A stretch of DNA of 64,000 nt from Acholeplasmatales bacterium (GTDB taxonomy: Bacteria; Bacillota_I; Bacilli_A; Acholeplasmatales; JAEDCM01), in assembly GCA_017961685.1 (NCBI GenBank), contig JAGCWW010000020.1, positions 1-64,000 of the forward strand, read 5' to 3'. The position numbers were made by a program, and so were the translations under genes. This document shows positions 50,262 through 59,560 of this stretch, one piece after another (the stretch's first letter is position 1; each line of letters opens with the position of its first letter). The notes under the pieces were generated by a model. It had not been told where the DNA came from, searched no databases, and was given only the letters and a program-made list of their open reading frames with translations.

Positions 50262-50384
50262 TTGAAAAATGTTTTTGTCCTAGGGCTTGATAAAAAACTT
50301 ATAAAAAATGCAAATAAAACGAGTTTGTATTTAGCTTTTTATAAAATCTTATTTAAGGTGGTGAACATCTATGATAGTTTATGA
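50262..50384 (+). CDS. Possible 40-residue small protein between the GIY-YIG and DUF2075 genes
   Basis: A TTG-started frame with GGAG about 8 bases upstream encodes a basic peptide containing LGLDKKLIKNANKTSLYLAF. Its TGA stop lies 14 bases inside the DUF2075 gene, so reading it would carry ribosomes over that gene's start. The frame continues an overlapping frame of the upstream gene, so it could also be chance. Confidence 0.3.
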   Translation: MKNVFVLGLDKKLIKNANKTSLYLAFYKILFKVVNIYDSL

Positions 50385-52245
50385 AGGAAATAAAAAGACT
50401 TTTCTTGATGATGTATCTAACGGATTAATGGTTAGAAAAATAGAAGAAATGTTTGATAAATTAGGTATAAAAAAAGAGCAACAAGCAGAAATGAATTCAT
50501 GGAAAAATTCTCTACCAAGAATGGGAAATATTATATCTGATAATAGAATTGATGATGAAGTTGGAATTGCTGTTGAATTTCAAATTCCTTTTACAAGCAA
50601 GAGAGTAGATTTTATGGTTGCTGGCAAGAATGATGAAAGTGATAATGTTGTTGTTATAGAATTGAAACAATGGGAAACTTGTCAAGCAACATCTAGAGAA
50701 AATGTAGTTACTGCCTTTACTGGTGGAGCAAATAGAGATGTTGCACATCCATCACAACAAGCTTATTCTTATGCCAAATTAATTCAAAACTTTAATGAGT
50801 CAATAGAAGAAGAAAAAATAGATATGATTCCTTGTGCATATTTGCATAACTATGAGGAAAAGAATAGGGGACAAATATGTCATCAGAAATATAGTGACAT
50901 CATTAAATTGTCACCTGTATTTCTAATGGAAGATGGAAAGAATCTAAAAGATTTTCTAGTTAAATATGTATCTAAACCATCAAATAAAAAACTATTTGAA
51001 ATAATTGAATATGGAAAATTAAAACCATCTAAATCGCTTCAAAGTGCGGTTGGTTCAATACTAAACGGAAATCAAGAGTTTGAACTTATTGATGAGCAAT
51101 TAGTTGCTTATTCAACAATATTAAAGCTAGTTCAAAACTCTATTAATAGTGATGAAAAGCATACAGTTATAGTTAAAGGTGGACCAGGTACTGGTAAAAG
51201 TGTAATTGCGATTAATCTTTTAACTAAGATTTTAAATAATGGTTATTCTTGTTGCTATGTAACAAAAAATTCAGCTCCACGTGCTGCTTTTTCTCAAAGC
51301 TTAGTAAAGGGAAAATATTCACTATCTTATTTGAAAGGTTTATTCAAAGGATCGGGTTCATTTATAGATACTCCAAATAATACGTTTGATTGTATTATCA
51401 CAGATGAGTCACATAGATTAAATGAAAAATCTGGATTATTTGGCAATAAAGGTCAAAACCAAATTATGGAAATTATAAAGTCATCAAAGATTAGTGTATT
51501 CTTCATTGATGAAGATCAAGTAGTCACTACTAAAGATATTGGATCAGTTGGAGAAATTAAAGCATGGGCAAAAATACTTGGCAGTAAAGTACACTGTAAT
51601 GAATCATTAGAATTAAAGAGTCAATTTAGATGTAATGGTTCTGATGGATACTTAGCTTTTTTAGATGATGTATTAGAAATAAGACAGACGGCAAATTATA
51701 ATTTCTTTGACTTAGATTATGATATAGAAATATTTGATAATCCAAACAAAATGAAAGAAGCACTAAGAAAAACTAATACAAGCAATAAATCTAGAATGAT
51801 AGCAGGTTATTGCTATCCTTGGAACAGCCAAAAAGATAAGAGTAAATATGACATTTTCTTAGAAAACGGATTTAAAGCTCAATGGAATTTTTCAACAGAC
51901 GGATTTGCAATAGATCCTAATTCGTTTGAACAAGTTGGATGTATTCATTCGACACAAGGATTAGAATTTGATTATGTTGGTATCATAATTGGATTAGACT
52001 TAAGATATGAGAATGGTCATATAATAGCTGACACATCAAAAAGAGCTGACACTGACTATTCTATTAGAGGCTTAAACGGCAATGTAAAATTAGGAGAAAG
52101 AATCATAAAAAATACTTATAAAACTCTATTATCTAGAGGACAAAAAGGATGCTTTATCTATTGTGAGGATAAGGCTTTAGCAGCATATTTAAAAGAAAGA
52201 TTGGCTAAAGCCCTAGGGGAAAGAGACAAAGCAAAAATCAGTTAG
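50371..52245 (+). CDS. DUF2075 (Schlafen-3-type) helicase with N-terminal PD-(D/E)XK-like domain
   Basis: A 624-residue protein. The first 200 or so residues contain FTSKRVDFMVAG...NVVVIELKQW, an Asp80...Glu97-x-Lys99 pattern of PD-(D/E)XK nucleases. The rest is the SF1-like DUF2075 helicase: Walker A VKGGPGTGKS (270-277), IITDESHRLN, VFFIDEDQVVT, SQFRCNGSDGYLAFL and IHSTQGLEFDYVGIIIG. Such helicases occur in phage-defence and repair contexts. The start has AAGGTGGTG. With the upstream GIY-YIG gene this forms a likely two- or three-gene unit with two nuclease activities and a motor. Confidence 0.85.
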   Translation: MIVYEGNKKTFLDDVSNGLMVRKIEEMFDKLGIKKEQQAEMNSWKNSLPRMGNIISDNRIDDEVGIAVEFQIPFTSKRVDFMVAGKNDESDNVVVIELKQWETCQATSRENVVTAFTGGANRDVAHPSQQAYSYAKLIQNFNESIEEEKIDMIPCAYLHNYEEKNRGQICHQKYSDIIKLSPVFLMEDGKNLKDFLVKYVSKPSNKKLFEIIEYGKLKPSKSLQSAVGSILNGNQEFELIDEQLVAYSTILKLVQNSINSDEKHTVIVKGGPGTGKSVIAINLLTKILNNGYSCCYVTKNSAPRAAFSQSLVKGKYSLSYLKGLFKGSGSFIDTPNNTFDCIITDESHRLNEKSGLFGNKGQNQIMEIIKSSKISVFFIDEDQVVTTKDIGSVGEIKAWAKILGSKVHCNESLELKSQFRCNGSDGYLAFLDDVLEIRQTANYNFFDLDYDIEIFDNPNKMKEALRKTNTSNKSRMIAGYCYPWNSQKDKSKYDIFLENGFKAQWNFSTDGFAIDPNSFEQVGCIHSTQGLEFDYVGIIIGLDLRYENGHIIADTSKRADTDYSIRGLNGNVKLGERIIKNTYKTLLSRGQKGCFIYCEDKALAAYLKERLAKALGERDKAKIS

Positions 52246-53617: not shown

Positions 53618-53663
53618 GCGCCATCATTTTGTCAAATGTTTTTGAAGAAAGGTGGTATTTTTT

Positions 53664-54674
53664 ATGACAGAGAAAGATTATTACGATATTGAATTAATGA
53701 TAGGTTATGAGTTTAGTAATAAAAGTTTATTAAAACAAGCTTTTACTAGAAAATCATATTCTATGGAAAATGGTGGAGAAGATAATGAAGTTCTTGAGTT
53801 TTATGGGGATACAGTATTATCAGGCAGTGTTATAAGAATTTTTGATATTTTATTCTGTGAAAGCAGGAAAGATTATTATGTATCAAAAAAAACAGAAGCT
53901 GAATTAACTGAATTGAAGAAAAATCTTGTTAGTAGAACTATGCTTTCTAAAAGAATTGATTACCTAGGACTTAGTGAGTATTTAATAATGGGTAAAAGTG
54001 ATATTTTAAATAATGTCCAAAATGAAGCTTCTGTAAAAGAGGACCTTTTTGAAGCCATAATTGGAGCGGTTGCTATTGATTGTAAGTTTGAATCAAGTAT
54101 TATTGATGGAGTAATCAATACAATGCTTGATCCAGTATATTATATTTATTGTGGATTTGATTTTGATGTTATTAACTATATCCAAAAAGTTCAAGAATGG
54201 AATCAAAAATTTAATGGTGAACTTCCAGAATATATTTATTCTATTGATGATTATTCAGATAAAATAGAATGTACAATACTTATTCCAAATCCAAGTGGTG
54301 AAGGTATTCTTGATTTTGAAGATATATCAAGAAATAAAGCAGATGCATTTATGAAAGCGGCAGAAAAAGCATACTGGTATTTATATAGAAACGGCTTTAT
54401 CAAAGAAGAAAAGATGATAGATGTTGCGGGAAAACCAGATATGCATAATCCTGTTGAACAACTAAATATTCTAGCAACAAAAGGTTATATTGAATCTCCA
54501 GATTACACCTTTATCGAAACATTTGATGATAATGGAAATCCTAAATGGGAATGTATTTGTAAAATCAAAGGATATGAATTTGAAGTACATAATCATGCTT
54601 CTAGCAAAAAAGAAGCAAAGAAATTATGTGCATATCAAGTTTATAAGTTATTATTAAATGAAAAAAAGAAGTAA
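53664..54674 (+). CDS. Ribonuclease III family protein with C-terminal dsRNA-binding domain
   Basis: A 336-residue RNase III. The ATG at 53664 is chosen over the GTG at 53652, which lies inside the AAAGGTGG site. The catalytic set is intact: NEVLEFYGDTVL (Glu42, Glu45, Asp49) and KEDLFEAIIGA (Asp127, Glu130). A dsRNA-binding domain ends the protein (NPVEQLNILATKGYI...SSKKEAKKLCAYQVYKLL), and residues 165-240 may be a degenerate second one. Housekeeping RNase III is about 230 residues; this is longer and lies among nuclease genes, not with smc or rpm genes. An accessory or defence role against double-stranded RNA is possible. Confidence 0.82.
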   Translation: MTEKDYYDIELMIGYEFSNKSLLKQAFTRKSYSMENGGEDNEVLEFYGDTVLSGSVIRIFDILFCESRKDYYVSKKTEAELTELKKNLVSRTMLSKRIDYLGLSEYLIMGKSDILNNVQNEASVKEDLFEAIIGAVAIDCKFESSIIDGVINTMLDPVYYIYCGFDFDVINYIQKVQEWNQKFNGELPEYIYSIDDYSDKIECTILIPNPSGEGILDFEDISRNKADAFMKAAEKAYWYLYRNGFIKEEKMIDVAGKPDMHNPVEQLNILATKGYIESPDYTFIETFDDNGNPKWECICKIKGYEFEVHNHASSKKEAKKLCAYQVYKLLLNEKKK

Positions 54675-54684
54675 AGGAGAATAA

Positions 54685-56169
54685 ATGATAATAAAATTAA
54701 ATAAACTATCCAATTTTAAGGAAAAGGAATATCTTTTAAAAGAATGGGACTATGAAAAAAACGGAGAATTAACTCCTGATAAAATTAGTTATGCTAGCAA
54801 TATAAAGGTATGGTGGAAGTGCAAAAATGGTCATTCATGGGCAACTTCACCATCACATAGAACTCTTCAAACAGGTAATTGCCCTTATTGTTCTAATAAG
54901 AAATTAGCAAAAGGAGAAAATGATTTAGAAACAGTTTTTCCAGATATTGCTAGAGAGTGGAATTATGAGAAAAATGGCTTATTAAAGCCGTCTGATGTTG
55001 TTTATGGTTCATCAAAAAAAGTGTGGTGGAAATGCAAGCTAGGACATGATTACGAAATGAAAGTATGTGTAAGAGCATATAAACTTACTAACTGCCCAAT
55101 ATGTCAAAAGGAAAGGCATACATCATTTATTGAACAAACAATTTTATTCTATTCAATGAAAGTATTTAAAAGTACTAAAAGCCAAGTTAAATTTGATTGG
55201 CTAGGAAAAGGTGAAATAGATATTTTTATTCCTGAACTGAATCTAGGAATAGAATATGATGGAGGATACTGGCATAAGGATATTAATAGGGATTTAAAAA
55301 AAGATATTTTATGCCAAGAACATAATATTGATTTGATTAGAATAAGAGGATCTAAATGTCCTATTTATGAAACAAATATTAAGTTAATAAGAATAGAAAA
55401 CGAATATAAAAACAGTATAATCGAAGAAGTTTTAAAATCTGTTTTCGATTATATAAAAGAAAAATATAATCTATATTTTTTTATTGATATAAATATTGAT
55501 AGAGATTATATCGAAATAACAGAGAAATTTGTTCTTGGTGAAAAAGTAGGTAATTTAGAGGAATTATTTCCAAACGTTTCTAAAGAATGGGACTATAGTA
55601 AAAATGGCACTATAACACCAAAAATGGTAAGTGCACATTCAAAAAAAGATTTTTGGTGGAAATGTAGTAAATGCGGTTATAGCTATAAAGCAACTGTAAA
55701 TAGAAGAACAGGTAGTAATAAAACAGGATGCCCTTTATGTAGTGGTAATATTGTTGTGAAAGGGAAAAACGATATTGAAACACTATTTCCTGAAATTCTA
55801 AAAGAATGGGATTATGATAAGAATATAATGCTTCCATCAGAAGTCTCAAAAGGATCAAATAAAAAAGTTTTTTGGAAATGTCCATTTGGTCATTCTTGGG
55901 AAGCATCAGTAGTAAATAGGATTAATCTTAAGGCTGGATGCCCAGTATGTAATCATAAAATAGTTGGTGAAAATAATAGTCTAGCTGATTTGTATCCAAA
56001 TTTACTAGAGGAATGGGATTATAGAAAAAATGAACGCAATCCATATACATTACTACCAAAATCTAATCTATTATTTTGGTGGAAGTGCAAAAAATGTGGT
56101 AATGAGTTTCAAAAGCGCATAAGCGAAGTCACAAGATTAGGTTATCCTTGTGTGAAATGTCATAAATAA
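54685..56169 (+). CDS. DUF4379 zinc-ribbon repeat protein with embedded Vsr-like endonuclease
   Basis: A 494-residue protein built of five treble-clef zinc-ribbon repeats, each starting near EWDYEKNG and holding WWKC..GH and CPxC pairs. Two lie before and three after a nuclease-like domain at about 150-250: EIDIFIPELNLGIEYDGGYWHKD and HNIDLIRIRGSKCP, the pattern of Vsr-type short-patch-repair endonucleases. Proteins of this type occur in mobile and defence regions, and the ribbons probably bind DNA. It follows the RNase III gene by 10 bases with AAAGGAG. Confidence 0.83.
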   Translation: MIIKLNKLSNFKEKEYLLKEWDYEKNGELTPDKISYASNIKVWWKCKNGHSWATSPSHRTLQTGNCPYCSNKKLAKGENDLETVFPDIAREWNYEKNGLLKPSDVVYGSSKKVWWKCKLGHDYEMKVCVRAYKLTNCPICQKERHTSFIEQTILFYSMKVFKSTKSQVKFDWLGKGEIDIFIPELNLGIEYDGGYWHKDINRDLKKDILCQEHNIDLIRIRGSKCPIYETNIKLIRIENEYKNSIIEEVLKSVFDYIKEKYNLYFFIDINIDRDYIEITEKFVLGEKVGNLEELFPNVSKEWDYSKNGTITPKMVSAHSKKDFWWKCSKCGYSYKATVNRRTGSNKTGCPLCSGNIVVKGKNDIETLFPEILKEWDYDKNIMLPSEVSKGSNKKVFWKCPFGHSWEASVVNRINLKAGCPVCNHKIVGENNSLADLYPNLLEEWDYRKNERNPYTLLPKSNLLFWWKCKKCGNEFQKRISEVTRLGYPCVKCHK

Positions 56170-56196: not shown

Positions 56197-56595
56197 ATGA
56201 TTGAAAAAAGGAAAGTTATTCTAACCAAAGAAGAAAATGATAATTATATTGATGATTTATTATGCTTTGGTTATGAAGTAACTTATAAAGAAAAAGAGAA
56301 AGTCAATAAAGAAACTTTAAGAGTCTTTATGTTAGAAAGAGATACTGATATTCCTAATTATGATAAATTAGTAGAACTTGAAAAAGAATATGAAGATAAT
56401 AAAAAAGAATTAGTAATGTATCCAAAAATAAATGGATGGTTAGTATTCTTTTTATGGTGCTTAATCATACCAGGAATGATTTATTATGATCTTAAAAGTA
56501 ATGATATAAAGGCAATAGATCAGCATAATGAACCATTACTTATAAAGATGTATGATTTAACGGAAGAAGCTAGAAAATTAAAAGAAGAAAAATAG
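56197..56595 (+). CDS. Single-helix membrane protein of unknown function
   Basis: A 132-residue protein, charged, with one hydrophobic segment at about 83-100 (INGWLVFFLWCLIIPGMIYY). I do not recognise it. A TATAAT lies at about 56172-56177 and a GGTGGAG site precedes the ATG. It is followed by the HEPN-like gene after 12 bases and may be its membrane partner. Confidence 0.65.
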   Translation: MIEKRKVILTKEENDNYIDDLLCFGYEVTYKEKEKVNKETLRVFMLERDTDIPNYDKLVELEKEYEDNKKELVMYPKINGWLVFFLWCLIIPGMIYYDLKSNDIKAIDQHNEPLLIKMYDLTEEARKLKEEK

Positions 56596-56607
56596 GGGGA
56601 AAAATAA

Positions 56608-57645
56608 ATGTCAAATTTCAGTGATATGGTCGCATATTTGCAACATAGCAATGCAAATTCGTTATATACTACAAGTGGAAAGTATGATTTTACAAAAGAT
56701 GCAAGACTACTGAATTTTTTAACAAATAATTTATGGTATACTTATAATAAGGAAAGTGAACAATATCCTTATTCTAATCCAGCAAGTATTCCAACTTACT
56801 TGATTAACAAAAGATTAGATAATCTTTTTGAATTACTATTGTGTGTTATTTTAAGGATTGCTCCATCTAATTTTTATTGCAAGGACAAAAAAATTGATGT
56901 GTGTTCAGCTTTAAATAAGATTAATAGTACTACTTTTGATACTTCCAGTACTTTTTGTATATTTTATGACAAAAGTAATACGGGTATTTACAATTCTTTT
57001 ATCATGAAGTTTTTACAGTCGTTAAGAAATTCATTAGCGCATGGCGGATTTAATAAACTATCAATTAATAATAGATATAACGAGGTGTATTTTAATAATG
57101 ATGATATAAACGATACAAAAAAAGTTTCAATGTCTTTAAGATTAATAGGTAATGCAAATGATAATTTTTTAGAAAAGGCATATAACGAAATTACTAGTTT
57201 AGGATCGGCAACCGTTTTTTCTTTATTTAGAAAAATAGCAAATTATTATTCTAGAAGAACAAACAATGGAAATAATCTTAACTTGAACAGGTATAATGAT
57301 AAAGTAGAAGTTTATGAATATAATAAAGAAAATGGCCATAAAATAATATATGTAATTGATTCAGATGACTTTAACGAAATAAGAGAAATAATATCTTACA
57401 TAATAATCAGTTTAAAAAAGCCAAAATTAGATGGAGTAAATGATTATGCCGATATAAATAATAGTATTTTTTATTTACCAGTGTATTTTAGGTCTGTTGC
57501 GAAAGATAAAATGCTTGAGTATTATATTGGAGCTGTTAAGAAAGAATATGGCTTAGATAATAATGATAAGACAAATGATGAAATAATAAAAGGGAATATA
57601 GATATAAAAATTTTATATAAATTAGAATTAATGGATTTATTATAA
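56608..57645 (+). CDS. HEPN-like protein (putative ribonuclease)
   Basis: A 345-residue soluble helical protein. The segment FLQSLRNSLAHGGF holds the Rx4H motif of HEPN ribonucleases (Arg140, Asn141, His145) at the C-terminal end of a helix, as in that superfamily. The rest has no motif that I recognise. HEPN proteins often act as the toxin or RNase effector of defence or toxin-antitoxin modules. The next gene (57676) is 30 bases downstream and could be its partner. AT content is even higher than that of the neighbours. Confidence 0.6.
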   Translation: MSNFSDMVAYLQHSNANSLYTTSGKYDFTKDARLLNFLTNNLWYTYNKESEQYPYSNPASIPTYLINKRLDNLFELLLCVILRIAPSNFYCKDKKIDVCSALNKINSTTFDTSSTFCIFYDKSNTGIYNSFIMKFLQSLRNSLAHGGFNKLSINNRYNEVYFNNDDINDTKKVSMSLRLIGNANDNFLEKAYNEITSLGSATVFSLFRKIANYYSRRTNNGNNLNLNRYNDKVEVYEYNKENGHKIIYVIDSDDFNEIREIISYIIISLKKPKLDGVNDYADINNSIFYLPVYFRSVAKDKMLEYYIGAVKKEYGLDNNDKTNDEIIKGNIDIKILYKLELMDLL

Positions 57646-57675
57646 TACAAGAAAGTTTTTTAGGGGAAAATAATA

Positions 57676-58386
57676 ATGATACATAAAAAAAAGGCAATCA
57701 AAATAAATAATAATGGGATATTTACTTTTGTTAATGGAATTTGTGAAGACCAATTTGTAGGATACTTTCATTTTAATAATGGCTCATTTTATAGCGTGAA
57801 CAAAGATGATGTATTTGATTTAGCATGTGATAAGAATATTAATGGGCAGGGAAGAATTTCGCTTGATTATGATAATAAAAACATTCACGTATCTCAAACC
57901 ACAAGCAAAAAAATGGTTATTTTATTAGAAAGCCCTCATATAAATGAATTTAATGTACAAAATAAAAAATATAAAACAGCACCAGCATGGGGAAAAACTG
58001 GTGCTAGGTTTAATTCCTTTTTTATTAAAATACTTAATTATAATCTAAAGAATATAGGAAATTGTTTTAAAAATAATGATGTTATTGATGTTTATTTTGT
58101 GAATGCAATTAGATATCAATGCAGTTTAGGTATTAGCCCAATCAATAAATCTTTAAGGGATTTTATATTTTATGCTTTGTGGGATAAACAAAATGATAGC
58201 TTTAAGGATGATTTATTAGAAAGAGTCCAAATGATTGATCCTGATTATCTTATAATTGCTCCTACAAAAAATATTAAGGAAAAATGTTTTAGGTCGAATC
58301 CAATCCCAACTAGTGCAGGAAGACCCGTATTTTTTACTGCAGAAACTCATCCATCTTGTTGGAATAAAAATACAACAATAATATAA
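57676..58386 (+). CDS. Uracil-DNA-glycosylase-like protein
   Basis: A 236-residue protein. Motifs in order are VILLESPH (81-88), PAWGKTGARFNSF (103-), YFVNAIRYQCSLG (140-152) and ETHPSCW (223-229). The last resembles the HPS motif and the first the substrate loop of the UDG superfamily, so a glycosylase-like fold is inferred; the canonical GQDPY is missing. It may act on nucleotides or DNA as the partner of the HEPN-like gene. It starts with an AGGGGA site. Confidence in the fold is moderate and in the function low. Confidence 0.5.
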   Translation: MIHKKKAIKINNNGIFTFVNGICEDQFVGYFHFNNGSFYSVNKDDVFDLACDKNINGQGRISLDYDNKNIHVSQTTSKKMVILLESPHINEFNVQNKKYKTAPAWGKTGARFNSFFIKILNYNLKNIGNCFKNNDVIDVYFVNAIRYQCSLGISPINKSLRDFIFYALWDKQNDSFKDDLLERVQMIDPDYLIIAPTKNIKEKCFRSNPIPTSAGRPVFFTAETHPSCWNKNTTII

Positions 58387-58407
58387 CGGACTCAATAAAT
58401 AAAAGGT

Positions 58408-58440
58408 AAGCATTTGTTTCTATATTAATGCTTTTCTTTT
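58408..58440 (+). terminator. Rho-independent terminator
   Basis: A 7-bp stem AAGCATT/AATGCTT with a 12-base loop and a T-rich tail. Confidence 0.7.
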
Positions 58441-58474: not shown

Positions 58475-59560
58475 ATGGAAGAATCTCTAACAAAAGAAAA
58501 ACTCCAAGAACTAATGAATAAATACTATAAAAAAGAAGATACATCATTATCTTTCTTTGATATTATCAATAAATCGCATGATGAGAATTTGATTTCGTTG
58601 ATGATTAGATATTTATTTGAAAATGATAGTGAATGTTTAAAAAATGTCTTAAATAAGGCATATAAAGACAATATTCATTATTTAGAAATAATTGAAATTA
58701 CTCCAGAATATTCTATAAAAGATAAAAAGAGAATAGATATTCTTATAAAAGCTCTTATAGATAAAAAAGAAAGTATTATTGTGATTGAAAATAAGGTTTA
58801 TTCAAAAGAACATGGTGAACAATGCAAATTATATTATGAATATATAGACAAAGAATTCCCTAATTTCATTAAGTATTATTTATTCCTAAAGCCTGAATAT
58901 AATAAAGCAACTTCAGGATGTAAGAAATTTATGGTTATTAATTATAGAGATTTATGTGACTCTATAACAAATGAAGATGATATTTATATCAAGGATTTCA
59001 AAAAAACAATTAATAATAATTTGGTGGTGGGTAAAATGGATGAATTAAAAAAATATATTTTAGATCATTTTAGTGAATTATATGGATTAGTAAGTGATTT
59101 GGATAAACAATTATCAAATTTTCTTGAGAATGAATATGGTAAGGAAATGCAAGAATTCTTAAAATGTGAAAGAGTAGAGGTGTATAAACCAAACTATTCA
59201 ATTAGATTTTATAACGCTAATTGTTGGGGTGGTTATAATGTTTCAAATGACGAAAAATATTATTTTTATGTTGAATTAGTCGGTCATGATAAAAACATTA
59301 AATATCCTAAGTTTCAGTATATAATTAATAGATATTCTGACAATCCTGAAACAAAAATATCAAAATACGTTATTAATAAAGATAGGGATAGTAGATTTGG
59401 CAAGAATTGTTTCGTTATAAGAACAGTTTCATTTATTTCAGATAAAGATGTTTTATCGCCAGAATGGAAAAGGGAATTAATAGAGAAAAGTAAGGAAGTT
59501 TTAAAGCCTTTTTATGATCAAATGCTTGAAGATGTTAAAAACTTCCTAGGAGAAAAATAA
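58475..59560 (+). CDS. PD-(D/E)XK nuclease superfamily protein
   Basis: A 361-residue protein. The nuclease core lies at about 70-150: an early Glu (LEIIEITPEY), KRIDILIKALI with the metal Asp, SIIVIENKVYSKEHGEQCKLYYEYI with the Glu-x-Lys pair, and YYLFLKP. This is the PDDEXK_4 arrangement. The C-terminal 200 residues, with NCWGGYNV and a domain of strands, may bind a target. Related proteins occur beside restriction and defence genes. It has a TATAAT at 58452-58457, a GAGGTG site and its own terminator upstream. Confidence 0.82.
   Translation: MEESLTKEKLQELMNKYYKKEDTSLSFFDIINKSHDENLISLMIRYLFENDSECLKNVLNKAYKDNIHYLEIIEITPEYSIKDKKRIDILIKALIDKKESIIVIENKVYSKEHGEQCKLYYEYIDKEFPNFIKYYLFLKPEYNKATSGCKKFMVINYRDLCDSITNEDDIYIKDFKKTINNNLVVGKMDELKKYILDHFSELYGLVSDLDKQLSNFLENEYGKEMQEFLKCERVEVYKPNYSIRFYNANCWGGYNVSNDEKYYFYVELVGHDKNIKYPKFQYIINRYSDNPETKISKYVINKDRDSRFGKNCFVIRTVSFISDKDVLSPEWKRELIEKSKEVLKPFYDQMLEDVKNFLGEK

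Follow-up and report, generated by a model that had tools for sequence, protein, structure and literature searches.

A predicted base-excising glycosylase of a little-known UDG-superfamily clade, encoded next to a probable HEPN RNase in an Acholeplasmatales bacterium

Within a window of 64,000 nucleotides (positions 1 to 64,000 of contig JAGCWW010000020.1, assembly GCA_017961685.1, Acholeplasmatales bacterium), three closely spaced genes on the forward strand encode a small single-helix membrane protein (56197..56595, a 132 aa ORF), a probable HEPN RNase (56608..57645, 345 aa) and a UDG-superfamily protein of the LESPH clade, a predicted base-excising glycosylase (57676..58386, 236 aa). Gaps of 12 nt and 30 nt separate the membrane gene from the HEPN-like gene and the HEPN-like gene from the UDG-like gene, and none of the three ORFs matches a Pfam, NCBIfam or PADLOC model at an accepted score. 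An A+T-rich hairpin followed by T residues lies 3' of the UDG-like gene on the same strand (58401..58440; RNA fold -11 kcal/mol, z -2.5) and is a possible weak terminator, unlisted by a terminator scan that requires three G-C pairs. Sigma-70 promoters are as numerous in the region as in shuffles.

Does the transcription unit comprise only these three genes? It may exceed them, since two co-directional genes stand close upstream: the gene for a long RNase III-like protein (53652..54674, + strand, identified by Pfam) ends 10 nt before that of a DUF4379 protein with five treble-clef repeats (54685..56169, + strand; PF14311 in five stretches), which in turn ends 27 nt before the membrane gene. A conserved five-gene operon including these two was rejected, as no DUF4379, HEPN or UDG homologue was found in nine regions, eight of them around long RNase III homologues from other genomes and one around an own-genome paralogue. 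The RNase III-like protein is of an accessory type with Dicer-dimerisation-like and dsRBD parts; its gene is one of four RNase III-domain genes detected by a search of its own genome, and its homologues occupy varied contexts within the order. A stretch among the repeats of the DUF4379 protein resembles, by eye, a Vsr-type endonuclease. A Schlafen group 3 helicase is encoded at 50371-52245, with partial PADLOC matches to PDC-S41, AbiO and Nhi, while 88 nt downstream of the UDG-like gene a PD-(D/E)XK nuclease-like protein (58475..59560, + strand) matches the PADLOC candidate PDC-S26. The 50-60 kb stretch is an accessory mix that includes the Schlafen-type helicase, the accessory RNase III, DUF4379 and PDDEXK_4. 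In two genomes from its genus that were compared to see whether the region is an insertion, the contigs that match it stop too early.

The first-pass annotation had likened the third protein to uracil-DNA glycosylases on account of the segments LLESPH, PAWGKTG and THPSCW, while noting that GQDPY was missing. All three segments are present, GQDPY is indeed missing, and the likeness is strongly borne out by fold (Z 8-10) and by profile comparison with controls. The AlphaFold2 model, built with a 34-member alignment (pLDDT 78, pTM 0.81; model m1f396c994535), was matched by VIA-align to UdgX (6l6s, Z 9.7), the S. tokodaii family-4 UDG (4zbx, Z 9.2) and TDG (3uo7, Z 8.2), on a scale where, by the tool's own statement, models lacking a clear match commonly reach Z values of 7 to 8. 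All 50 of the matches listed are UDG-superfamily entries. Foldseek against the PDB also ranked UdgX first, but with an E value of 7e-3 only. At the sequence level, hhalign joined a clade profile of 48 sequences (the window protein, 45 loci from two contig collections and two plasmid records) to a profile of 18 family-4 UDGs with a probability of 93.4 and an E value of 2.6e-7 over 129 columns, whereas all 12 controls (the reversed profile, five column-shuffled profiles and six unrelated profiles) had probabilities of at most 0.6. A search of PDB chains with the UDG-like profile gave no meaningful match, and a BFVD search gave nothing better than E 0.012. On the evidence of the model and the profile comparison, the third protein is a true UDG-superfamily protein. 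It is a member of a real, little-known protein family, and its clade is one with LESPHxxE in place of GEAPG or GQDPY and without a Pfam or NCBIfam model.

All 34 aligned homologues agree in nine columns (E85, S86, P87, H88, E91, N143, Q148, S150 and H225), so that the UDG-like motifs are not a matter of chance. In the hhalign alignment, motif 1, LESPHINE (residues 84-91; 57925..57948, + strand), falls at the position of GEAPGxxE, and PAWGKTG (residues 103-109; 57982..58002, + strand) at that of PFVGxAG. NAIRYQCS (residues 143-150; 58102..58125, + strand) takes the position of N(A/V)VKxR, with Asn143 at the base-reading Asn, and HPSCW (residues 225-229; 58348..58362, + strand) forms motif 2 with the catalytic His. 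Across the 45 clade sequences, E85, N143, Q148 and S150 occur in all and H225 in 44. The aromatic residue used for base stacking in family 4 (F54) is missing: Ala104 stands where family-4 UDG has the stacking Phe, and Ala is found there in 41/45 clade sequences. The window protein itself may be a drifted copy, since it carries Pro196 where 41/45 have Cys and Arg146 where 39/45 have Gln.

Could the clade be an iron-sulfur UDG? In family-4 UDG and UdgX, four Cys carry an iron-sulfur cluster. Cys is widely conserved in the clade only at positions 23, 149 and 196 (34, 36 and 41 of 45), a pattern that does not fit the four-Cys requirement, and the candidate was rejected. For the T. thermophilus UDGa, the available part of the paper gives a pocket of E41, G42, E47, F54, N80 and H155, and N89 as also mattering for catalysis (PMC5387724). 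By alignment and spacing, the first six correspond to E85, S86, E91, A104, N143 and H225, and N89 is without a clear partner in the alignment. From the Glu, Asn and His that it has kept, the protein is predicted to be a working glycosylase. The missing stacking Phe and the altered motif 1 point to a different base, or to a different way of holding the base. Because the aromatic shelf is Ala and motif 1 is LESPH, we expect a preference for a base different from plain uracil, perhaps for a phage-modified pyrimidine.

The second gene had been read as a HEPN RNase from an Rx4H motif, RNSLAH at Arg140-His145, and that motif is present (residues 140-145, codons at 57025..57042, + strand). In 20,000 shuffles of the protein, Rx4H arose in 10% and RNx3H in 1.4%. 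The full-length protein has no Pfam match; the best match of a crop of residues 55-181, which includes RNSLAH, is pEK499_p136 HEPN (E 0.0057), scoring 16.8 bits against a cut-off of 26.6. A single-sequence AlphaFold2 model places RNSLAH at a predicted helix end; its pLDDT of 38 makes it unusable, and a HEPN bundle from this alignment-free model was not used as evidence. The HEPN reading thus keeps its motif and has a HEPN family as its top Pfam hit, but that score lies under the curated cut-off and the model is too poor to add to it. From its sequence, we regard the second gene as a probable HEPN RNase with predicted activity. The small membrane protein before it turned out as described, with one hydrophobic segment (residues 78-96, mean Kyte-Doolittle 1.82).

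Homologues of the HEPN-like protein were found in its own genome only among 160 genomes of the order. Among 392 genomes of the phylum there was one further match (L010, E 1e-4), rejected as spurious since three stops interrupt it and it falls within no ORF. None was found in the plasmid, phage and viral collections, nor in two weak searches for which no genome was known to match: 391 genomes from the class to which the closest UDG-like relative belongs, and 35 genomes with a UDG-like relative (0/35). Homologues of the membrane protein were likewise absent from the ORFs near UDG-like relatives (best E 0.13). The proposal of a three-gene set is therefore left with the tight spacing in its favour, the partner genes not having been found beside UDG-like relatives; with no conservation of the trio in the genomes searched, a three-gene system stays hypothetical.

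The LESPH clade is more widespread, occupying about 50 loci across diverse bacteria and in prophages. A profile search returned 37 loci in genome contigs and 11 in viral contigs, the plasmid collection held two matching records, and phage records held no match to the UDG-like protein. Within the order, 5 of 160 genomes match, the own genome included, and this sporadic occurrence supports the reading of the locus as a defence operon. Might the protein instead have nothing to do with defence and deal with deaminated bases, in repair or in the nucleotide pool? Members of the UDG superfamily are mostly repair enzymes, and in one relative (L022:5804-8615) the LESPH glycosylase follows directly, after a 259 nt gap, a dCTP-deaminase-like gene identified by Pfam, which would raise dU. 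Yet dCTP deaminase is itself a PADLOC defence family, and a distribution this patchy speaks against a repair role. Moreover, another contig of the same genome carries an ordinary UDG (PF03167), and the UDG-like protein is therefore not the genome's repair copy. We consider this explanation very improbable.

What surrounds the glycosylase gene elsewhere? After removal of near-identical loci, 36 non-redundant loci of 45 supplied 128 near ORFs, whose PADLOC matches comprise RtcR with CARF (5, best E 6e-186), LeoA/LeoBC (2), AbiEi (2), HamB, a type I MTase, dCTPase and LmuB. An equal number of far ORFs, sampled from 275 at the same loci, matched GajA, DpdF, LmuA, HamA and PsyrT. Strong defence matches at both distances indicate defence islands with no enrichment at close range: the LESPH clade frequently lies in defence islands, and the near/far contrast is without close-range enrichment. 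Several members sit among housekeeping-type genes (L016, L024 and L039, for example). Counts of an R[ND]x3H motif in near and far ORFs (10/128 vs 8/275) were dropped as evidence, the occurrences being mostly chance by eye.

Twenty neighbour proteins of clade members were also scanned singly against Pfam; seven matched no family and one proved to be a phage portal protein. PycTM lies beside the glycosylase in L014, and DUF5677 near it in L056. DUF3644 is divergent to the glycosylase in L023, and in L018, from Myxococcus, the DUF4209 ORF overlaps that of the glycosylase by 4 nt; both are HEPN families in the available portion of the source (PMC3710099). At L049:2636-12618, type I restriction genes are followed by a LESPH glycosylase and then by GTPase genes, a GTPase of this locus being among the proteins identified in the Pfam scan. 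The LeoA/LeoBC matches of the tally, which carries no member names, probably come from this locus, an assignment that we infer. Beside the closest relative of the window protein, the product of L011:6572-7435 contains LLIGESHY, reminiscent of a motif-1-like stretch from another UDG-like protein; this product has no Pfam match.

These neighbourhoods bear on whether the window genes belong together at all. The glycosylase could be a stand-alone defence gene, with the HEPN and membrane genes as unrelated neighbours drawn from the same variable region. The neighbours of its relatives are diverse and include no copies of the HEPN-like or membrane gene, and the 50-60 kb stretch holds mixed accessory genes, both as such an arrangement would have it. 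Against it, the three genes share a strand with gaps of 12 and 30 nt and have a possible terminator only behind the last of them, which points to a single transcript, and HEPN families adjoin two other relatives, those with DUF4209 (L018) and DUF3644 (L023). We think it possible, though on the whole unlikely, that the glycosylase acts alone. In the survey of neighbours, relatives often lay among defence genes, but the neighbours vary and the exact trio was seen only in the window. Defence, which the first-pass annotation had suggested, is favoured for the glycosylase family by neighbours elsewhere and is putative at the window locus. With relatives often found among anti-virus genes, the UDG-like protein is probably a phage-defence enzyme.

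One neighbourhood recurs with unusual regularity. In ten Burkholderiales-type loci (L030, L033, L034, L035, L036, L038, L040, L051, L053 and L057; eight from genome contigs or their MAGs and two from viral contigs), a gene for an RtcR-type CARF activator lies directly upstream of the glycosylase gene, on the same strand, with a gap of 128-156 nt. The RtcR-like sigma54 activator of L030 was confirmed singly by Pfam. About 48 nt before the glycosylase start, a sigma54-type promoter, TGGCA(C/T)(A/G)N4TNGC, is present in 10/10 of these loci and in 0/42 others; the distance in L033 uses a mechanically called start that is probably placed too early. The background for this pattern is 0.004 per 310 nt, with 17 matches in 1.29 million positions, the ten RtcR loci included. 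Several of the ten are close relatives, and at 75% identity they reduce to five. Near three of the RtcR-glycosylase pairs (L034:8557-9531, L057:8643-9617 and L036:4984-6012) are genes for proteins of about 320-350 aa that share HAN(C/F)DSLPLR(F/Y)GMHF.

Salmonella RtcR, according to the part of the report available, is activated by tRNA fragments that carry a cyclic phosphate at their end (PMC7790460). The clade could accordingly serve an RNA-damage response, in which tRNA is first cut by RNases, of the HEPN type or others, before the glycosylase acts on the damaged RNA or on phage DNA. The RtcR activator and the sigma54-type promoter would fit such a role, as would the position of the window glycosylase after a probable HEPN RNase. 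The link is nevertheless limited to the Burkholderiales-type loci, ten that count as five; no RtcR-like gene was seen by eye among the ORFs of the window, and RNA as a substrate is a supposition only. We regard an RNA-damage role as doubtful. A broader version would make the LESPH clade a separate defence-glycosylase branch tied to RNA cleavage, through an RtcR-CARF switch that senses broken tRNA in Burkholderiales and through pairing with HEPN proteins elsewhere (the window and Myxococcus L018). RNA cutting would then be the alarm, and base excision from phage DNA, or else from RNA, the second strike. This generalization is speculative, and we would be surprised to see it hold. In open-licence literature, RtcR, a glycosylase and RNA repair were combined only in a text on another system, to the extent that this text is available.

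The best reading of the window locus, in our estimate with a probability of about one half, is a compact defence operon in which two enzymes that attack nucleic acids, a predicted glycosylase and a probable HEPN RNase, are brought together. How might it work? We infer catalysis, substrate, HEPN activity, phage defence and the joint action of the three genes, as follows. The LESPH glycosylase would flip a base out of nucleic acid into its pocket, where Asn143 and Glu91 would read the base and His225 would stabilise it as it leaves. The abasic sites left behind would block phage replication. The HEPN RNase would cut RNA and arrest the cell or the phage, with the small membrane protein perhaps serving as its anchor or regulator. 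To our knowledge, very few families of phage-fighting glycosylases have been described (Brig1 and Brig3). Enzymes that may excise unusual phage bases can be drawn directly from the LESPH clade, a broad group that keeps its predicted catalytic residues, has an altered pocket and lies beside defence genes. The pairing of RtcR with a sigma54 promoter makes it possible to test whether RNA damage and base excision are connected.

How do these genes compare with systems already known? The closest HEPN relation of the second protein is pEK499_p136, the best Pfam match of its cropped sequence, although the match is below cut-off and the remainder of the protein is unmatched. CoCoNuT operons have a CARF sigma54 activator before defence genes, as is found before the Burkholderiales glycosylases; the likeness covers only the glycosylase neighbours read, with no RtcR in the window, and the main text of the CoCoNuT paper makes no mention of a glycosylase or UDG (PMC11090510). 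A figure legend, the available part of the DefensePredictor paper, names a predicted, unvalidated UDG system, which may be the LESPH clade or another (PMC13092281). Open-licence literature held no text that combines uracil-DNA glycosylase, defence island and HEPN, and none that combines dCTP deaminase, uracil-DNA glycosylase and phage defense. With family-4 UDG and UdgX, the LESPH clade shares the fold, the order of motifs, the motif-1 Glu, a Glu four residues after the Pro, the base-reading Asn and the motif-2 His. It differs in having LESPH rather than GEAPG, Ala rather than a stacking Phe and a conserved QxS after the Asn, and in being without the set of four conserved Cys for the iron-sulfur cluster. 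Brig1 and Brig3, in the available parts of the two reports, are DNA glycosylases of the UDG superfamily directed against T-even phages (PMC11078745, PMC13160076), so that enzymes of this superfamily can be phage defences. Both share with the LESPH clade their superfamily and a place among defence genes, Brig3 within an operon. Compared by the residues named in those parts alone, motif 1 of Brig3 is N50-P51-S52-R53 and Brig1 uses Y121/E147, unlike LESPH. In Brig3, E55 contacts the hydroxymethyl group of hmC and its loss ends defence (PMC13160076, in the part available), and this residue stands four positions after the motif-1 Pro, as does E91 of the window protein.
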